Assembly: GCA_026397515.1 (NCBI GenBank)
Contig: JAPLUU010000022.1
Location: 1 to 51,055, forward strand
Source of the DNA: a candidate division SR1 bacterium
GTDB lineage: Bacteria > Patescibacteriota > Gracilibacteria > Absconditabacterales > Absconditicoccaceae
Reading direction: 5' to 3'
DNA length: 51,055 nt
In this document: positions 27,412 through 51,055 of the stretch, in pieces
Layout of the letters: every line of letters begins with the position of its first letter
Numbering within the stretch: position 1 is the first letter of the stretch
The notes under the pieces: generated by a model
Seen by the model: only the letters and a program-made list of their open reading frames with translations
The model's database searches: none
Told to the model about the DNA's origin: nothing
Translations under genes and position numbers: made by a program

Positions 27412-27474
27412 GGGGCGTTGGTGTAGTGGTTAACATAGCGGTCTCTCGGTCCGCTTTAGCGGACTCCGAACCGT
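27412..27474 (+). pseudogene. Damaged tRNA-Arg copy A with palindrome in the anticodon loop
   Basis: The first 33 bases are identical to the 5' half of intact tRNA-Arg (27871-27942), up to GCGGTCT. Then a 20-base palindromic insert (core GTCCGCTTTAGCGGAC) sits between anticodon-loop positions 33 and 34, followed by TCCGAACCGT, which closes the anticodon stem. If the insert were removed the loop would read UCC rather than UCG. The T arm and 3' acceptor strand are absent; sequence leads into the GIY-YIG gene. Confidence 0.75.
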
Positions 27475-27502
27475 AGCAAAAATTTTATCTTTACAAACAG
27501 AT

Positions 27503-27745
27503 ATGTATTACGTATATATCTTAAAATGAAAAAGATATTATTGTTGATGTACAAATGACATTAAAAGAAGATTACAAGAACACAAAAGAGGAAAGACAAA
27601 AACAACAAAAATATCAAAAACATATGATCTTATTTGATATTATATTCTCGAGACACAAGAAAAAGCTTTAGAACTAGAAAGAAAAATAAAAAATAGTGGA
27701 CATATAGAAAGATGGACGGAGAATAAAGAGTTTATTGTTATATAG
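27503..27745 (+). CDS. Stand-alone GIY-YIG nuclease domain protein
   Basis: 80 residues: MYYVYILKGKRYYCGCTNDI contains the GIY and YIG elements, KRRLQEHKRGK the catalytic Arg and conserved His, and EKALELERKIK the Glu. All but about two glycines in the domain core are TGA. It belongs to the same small class as the gene at 1431-1688 (COG2827-like), but the two are quite different in sequence. The gene is flanked by two damaged 5' copies of tRNA-Arg and followed by the intact tRNA. That context suggests it targets the tRNA gene, which is inference. Confidence 0.83.
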
Positions 27746-27749
27746 TTAT

Positions 27750-27837
27750 GGGGCGTTGGCCCAGCTAAAGCGGGGTAAATGTCGTGATTAACATAGTGGT
27801 ATGAACCCCGCAAGGCGGGGTCGGAACTATTGTCGAG
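27750..27837 (+). pseudogene. Damaged tRNA-Arg copy B with two palindromic inserts
   Basis: Begins GGGGCGTTGG like intact tRNA-Arg. A ~20-base insert containing CAGCTAAAGCGGGG lies in the D arm, then ATTAACATAGTGGT resumes the tRNA. The anticodon loop carries an 18-base insert GAACCCCGCAAGGCGGGG; without it the loop is ATTCGGA, keeping UCG. The anticodon stem changed on both sides (C28-G42 to T28-A42), so pairing was maintained. After TGTC the T arm is lost. Confidence 0.7.
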
Positions 27838-27870
27838 ATTATTTATACAAATTATTAACGCATGAATTAT

Positions 27871-27942
27871 GGGGCGTTGGTGTAGTGGTTAACATAGCGG
27901 TCTTCGGAACCGTTGTCAGGGGTTCGATCCCCTTACGCCCTG
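27871..27942 (+). tRNA. tRNA-Arg (TCG anticodon)
   Basis: Acceptor GGGGCGT pairs with ACGCCCT (outer pair G-T). D arm GTGT/ACAT. Anticodon arm GCGGT/CTTCGGA/ACCGT gives UCG. T arm AGGGG/TTCGATC/CCCTT. CCA is not encoded. It is the only intact copy at this locus and is followed by a terminator. Confidence 0.85.
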
Positions 27943-27950
27943 AACTAAAT

Positions 27951-48663: not shown

Positions 48664-50192
<1,529 letters not shown>

Positions 50193-50215
50193 ACCATGCT
50201 TTATCTCTTTTTAAT
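50193..50215 (-). other. 16S processing stem, 5' strand
   Basis: Minus-strand leader ATTAAAAAGAGATAAAGCAT, complementary to 48611-48635. It starts a few bases before the mature 16S 5' end. Confidence 0.75.
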
Positions 50216-50369
50216 GCTATTAATGATCTCTACAGACTAGTTGAATTGATCGATAAGCGTAAATTTTGAAAACAGTGAGAGGGATATGGGGGTTGAAGAG
50301 TTTATTTTAAACTTCTCAACTATCTCCACGAAGTCGCTTATTGCAATTTGATCTATTCATCTACTGTAA

Positions 50370-50488
<119 letters not shown>

Positions 50489-50573
50489 TAGAGTAAACGA
50501 AAAATCTACTATAATGAAAAGATCATTTAGTACAATAGCATAATATATTACGTACAAAAAAAACAATAAATCT

Positions 50574-51055
<482 letters not shown>

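Follow-up and report, generated by a model that had tools for sequence, protein, structure and literature searches.

A GIY-YIG nuclease gene and an intact tRNA gene lie together among hairpin-bearing remnants of the same tRNA gene, a design that recurs at many tRNA genes across bacterial phyla

Why should a small nuclease gene lie between two defective copies of a tRNA gene whose intact version is found just downstream? To address this, we analysed a 51,055-nt stretch of DNA (the window), a whole contig of a 1.21 Mb draft genome (G000; G numbers denote genomes and L numbers loci) that uses TGA as glycine. ARAGORN and Rfam placed an intact tRNA-Arg(TCG) at 27870-27943 on the plus strand (Rfam 27871-27942, 59.8 bits), the only copy of this isoacceptor found in the genome assembly. 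Upstream, and also on the plus strand, lie a 5' remnant of the same tRNA (copy A, 27412-27474), whose first 33 nt are 100% identical to the intact tRNA, an ORF of 80 aa (27503-27745) and a more degraded 5' remnant (copy B, 27750-27838). The ORF is open only with TGA=Gly (3 TGA codons) and matches the GIY-YIG family PF01541 at E=2.5e-11 (the search gave E values of 2.5e-11 and 3e-15). A companion locus on the minus strand contains an intact, single-copy tRNA-Phe(GAA) (1697-1771), a GIY-YIG ORF with the tRNA upstream of it (1431-1688) and a 3' remnant of tRNA-Phe (1376-1436). The two nucleases share 37% identity over 65 aa. The preliminary description of this arrangement, including the duplication of 5' parts at the Arg locus and of 3' parts at the Phe locus, was correct. 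Elsewhere in the window, the rRNA order on the minus strand (48666-51055) is 23S (3' end), 5S, then 16S, so that the 16S gene is downstream of the 5S gene, and the contig ends inside the 23S gene.

The preliminary description did not mention that each damaged copy carries a GC-rich hairpin in or near its anticodon arm. In copy A, GTCCGCTTTAGCGGAC (27449-27464) extends the anticodon arm and is followed by the 3' strand of the anticodon stem; the same hairpin occurs in the homologous element of a congener (L092). Copy B holds an imperfect hairpin (27760-27775) and the perfect hairpin ACCCCGCAAGGCGGGGT (27805-27821). In the tRNA-Phe remnant the hairpin at 1410-1425, TCCCGATTTATCGGGA, written TCCCGATAAATCGGGA where it stands in place of the anticodon arm, replaces that arm. 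The whole window holds only 7 hairpins of this strength, against 0-2 in shuffled sequences, and 3 of the 7 are these, which is well beyond chance.

To determine whether the association between tRNA and GIY-YIG genes is recurrent, as had been proposed from the two loci in 51 kb, all PF01541 matches of the genome were inspected. Of eight matches, four are next to tRNAs (Arg, Phe, Lys(TTT) and Trp); with roughly 2.2% of positions within 200 nt of a tRNA (our estimate), this has a binomial p-value of about 1.5e-5. The isoacceptors with an element are single copy in this genome. Three further tRNAs (Arg-GCG, Cys and Leu-TAG) have a hairpin remnant but no ORF and look like decayed or ORF-less copies. 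Such hairpin-bearing remnants beside intact tRNAs without any GIY-YIG ORF, likely decayed or ORF-less elements, were noted at L018, L217 and L013 of G000 and at several tRNA loci of G008. Among 99 matches examined in 31 genomes of the class, 35 lie within 200 nt of a tRNA, all on the strand of the tRNA and at 21 isoacceptors, with the tRNA upstream of the ORF in 17 and downstream in 18. A contig search seeded with one linked protein returned 79 loci from CPR bacteria, Bacteroidota (including isolates such as Belliella, Algoriphagus, Aquimarina and Sediminibacterium), Acidobacteria, Verrucomicrobia, Kiritimatiellae, Deltaproteobacteria and others, of which 50 have a tRNA within 400 nt, again all on the same strand; this second set is biased by its seed, while the first was not chosen for tRNA linkage. 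Remnants were detected in 28 of 35 and 40 of 45 loci of the two sets, with a GC hairpin in 25 and 33, respectively, against 6 of 67 unlinked tRNAs of two genomes (Fisher odds ratio 25, p-value 1.4e-10 for the first set). In 64 of 68 loci with a remnant, the ORF lies between the intact tRNA and a remnant. Hairpins are concentrated around the linked ORFs (1.87 per kb within 400 nt, against 0.37 for unlinked ones), although some GIY-YIG ORFs not within 200 nt of a tRNA (L051, L056, L060 and L085) also have strong GC hairpins close by and may be relatives using other targets. The proposed recurrent association is thus supported. The two loci of the window are independent in that they have different targets and different nucleases, but both belong to one wider element family.

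The most complete copies (L059 Tyr, L105b Glu, L068 and L095 Leu, and L098 Lys) consist of a 5' remnant, the intact tRNA and the ORF in either order, and a 3' remnant. The 5' remnant starts at the first base of the tRNA and typically runs to about nt 48-67, the 3' remnant starts at about nt 7-16 and runs to the last base, and both carry the same hairpin. The positions of the hairpins are not random: in about 14 loci with many different tRNAs, the retained bases stop at -8/-7 and resume at +9/+10 relative to the anticodon, which is an exact replacement of the 17-nt anticodon arm. A second group has a clean insertion at -13 to -11 (L074, L055, L230, L247 and, one-sided, L226), and a Bacteroidota Met group sits mostly at +3/+14. 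Among eleven 16-nt hairpins, stem pairs vary in compensated fashion. In the UvrC gene of G003 (L076) we noted the in-frame peptide DLPAGRQG, which by our reading is what the palindrome CCTGCCTGCCGGCAGGCAGG encodes; similar palindromes sit in Leu, Arg and Glu tRNA remnants, hinting that they also land in protein genes. At L113 (G025) the nuclease ORF reads on into the adjacent hairpin tRNA remnant, so that its C-terminus is partly translated tRNA sequence.

Comparison with element-free loci showed that the element is an insertion. The tRNA-Tyr element of G006 (L059) aligns to the element-free locus of G000 in two blocks, the upstream flank plus tRNA nt 1-59, and tRNA nt 16-85 plus 1.4 kb of downstream flank. 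Roughly 0.4 kb holding an intact tRNA-Tyr and the ORF is therefore inserted in the tRNA gene, with a 44-nt duplication. The Arg locus of the window is collinear with G008, which has an identical tRNA body but no ORF, while G004 keeps an ORF-less hairpin remnant there and G007 has the homologous element. A recent transfer of the Arg element between G000 and G007 was not supported, as the flanks are about as diverged as the element, and this pair looks vertically inherited.

The linked nucleases are single-domain GIY-YIG proteins, mostly 79-86 aa, with the catalytic-type residues Y5, Y15, G17, R25, H29 and E61 invariant in 17 linked proteins. In the pairs compared, dN (about 0.15-0.34) was well below dS (0.31 to about 2; for example 0.15 against 0.89), in line with purifying selection, although several dS values are near saturation and one pair is saturated. 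On a 93-column tree the linked proteins cluster away from the UPF0213-like and other unlinked proteins (6 label changes against 25.9 in shuffles), though deep forks are weak. Several same-target sister pairs exist (Arg-TCG, Lys-CTT and Leu-TAA), as do sister pairs with different targets (Tyr/Val, Lys/His and Gln/Leu), as expected of homing enzymes changing target. A series of longer GIY-YIG ORFs (about 217-275 aa open frames, no TGA) is clustered on two contigs of G007 (C55 and C44).

With moderate confidence, we favour the explanation that the locus is one copy of a widespread, compact family of homing-type mobile elements that invade tRNA genes and carry a complete copy of the target tRNA. 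In the proposed mechanism, which is inferred from the anatomy, as no cleavage or movement was observed, the nuclease would cut a tRNA gene lacking the element, and recombinational repair from an element-bearing chromosome, with remnants and flanks as homology arms, would copy the element in. The hairpins would destroy the cut site in the remnants, the co-copied tRNA, possibly co-transcribed with the ORF from the tRNA promoter, would keep the host alive, and the host would then depend on the element for an essential tRNA. The weak point is that the rescue tRNA is not consistently recoded against element-free alleles (11 isoacceptors were tested; Gln and Arg, for example, are nearly or wholly identical), so that how the nuclease spares it is unexplained. 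Moreover, the remnants overlap by about 40 nt, which a bare cut-and-copy at one site does not require. A further possibility, which remains tentative, is a natural cleave-and-rescue system, in which the nuclease destroys essential single-copy tRNA genes lacking the element, the element supplies the only functional copy, and the replacement of a tRNA arm by a DNA hairpin marks and immunises the broken gene; this would be a toxin-free addiction module that has diversified onto most tRNA isoacceptors across phyla.

The main rival, which we consider possible but less likely, is a hairpin-ended transposon, in which a Slx1-like GIY-YIG protein acts on extruded DNA hairpins, both its own and the anticodon-arm hairpin of the target gene, swapping hairpin for hairpin in the manner of REP/RAYT or IS200/IS605 systems but with a different enzyme. 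The hairpins are perfect palindromes with compensating stem variation, sit on both sides of the insert and exactly replace an arm, solo hairpin remnants occur without an ORF, and some GIY-YIG ORFs not near tRNAs are also flanked by hairpins. In addition, the closest solved relatives are UPF0213 proteins, one of which (1ywl) has been placed in the Slx1 cluster, so a structure-specific activity is possible. However, some loci have only one remnant and one hairpin, hairpins also sit elsewhere in the tRNA, such as the D-arm/anticodon junction or T-loop, the remnants continue past the hairpins, so that the ends of the insert are not simply at these, and no GIY-YIG transposase is known to us.

A SegB-like amplification, in which breaks in tRNA genes lead to local duplication of tRNA segments that then decay around an otherwise immobile nuclease gene, appears unlikely. 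It would account for the tandem arrays of remnants at L113, L116b and L124, and T6 SegB drives segmental amplification of tRNA-Tyr (PMC13096335), but amplification does not give hairpins replacing the anticodon arm at conserved positions, remnants on the outer side of the ORF, or the same design in many phyla. Still more doubtful is a domesticated host system acting on RNA, in which the protein and hairpin tRNA-like RNAs serve regulation or tRNA quality control. Same-strand linkage, purifying selection and an arm-for-arm replacement that keeps an RNA-like layout are compatible with this, but a different set of tRNAs is occupied in each genome of one genus, decayed relics are present and the target switches on the tree. 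Although tRNA genes are known integration sites, coincidence or an ordinary insertion hotspot is very improbable, given the enrichment, the complete strand agreement in both sets and the hairpin-bearing remnants described above, and no integrase was seen.

In the open literature searched, which did not include subscription journals and cannot prove absence, no description of a bacterial tRNA/GIY-YIG/hairpin element was found; a paper on hypervariation in Gracilibacteria (PMC6851277) is unrelated. If our interpretation is right, this is a large, apparently undescribed family of chromosomal selfish elements that live inside essential tRNA genes and hold the only working copy, a natural counterpart of synthetic cleave-and-rescue drives. 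It would give many small GIY-YIG nuclease family proteins a concrete role and offer dozens of sister enzymes with different natural tRNA-gene targets for studying how a single GIY-YIG domain picks its target.

Among known systems, a group I or II intron in a tRNA gene does not fit, as the intact tRNA is uninterrupted and no intron family match was found in the window. Neither does an integrase-type tRNA island, since the insert is about 0.4 kb in the Tyr case, its only ORF found is GIY-YIG and the duplicated segment is internal to the tRNA. REP/RAYT and Rickettsia palindromic elements, apparently likewise small GC-rich palindromes scattered by mobility and sometimes inside genes, differ in that the hairpins described here concentrate in tRNA remnants beside a GIY-YIG gene, and the only ORF found in the insert is not a Y1 transposase. 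The UPF0213/Slx1-like proteins (PDB 1zg2 and 1ywl) have the same single-domain architecture, but the UPF0213-like genes of these genomes are mostly not next to tRNAs and fall in separate groups of the tree. Phage SegB, a GIY-YIG homing endonuclease reported to cut within tRNA genes and co-located with many tRNA isotypes in phages (PMC13096335), shows that the target choice is biochemically plausible. However, SegB is phage-encoded, whereas four of five proteins tested here had no PHROG match and one had weak hits, one query had no hit in phage records, and two viral-contig scans (IMG/VR) gave one weak hit for one query and none for another; hairpin-marked remnants and an arm-replacing anatomy are not described for SegB in the text consulted. 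Fungal mitochondrial mobile endonuclease ORFs with duplicated gene ends (Allomyces atp6; Glomus atp6/atp9/cox2/nad3; PMC3630166) work most alike, in that a free-standing endonuclease ORF inserted in an essential gene brings a replacement part of that gene and leaves the native part as a displaced remnant. Here, by contrast, the target is a tRNA gene in bacteria, a complete tRNA is present, the replaced part may be 5' or 3', the remnants carry hairpins, the nuclease is a single GIY-YIG domain of roughly 80 aa, and 21 isoacceptors are targeted in one class.
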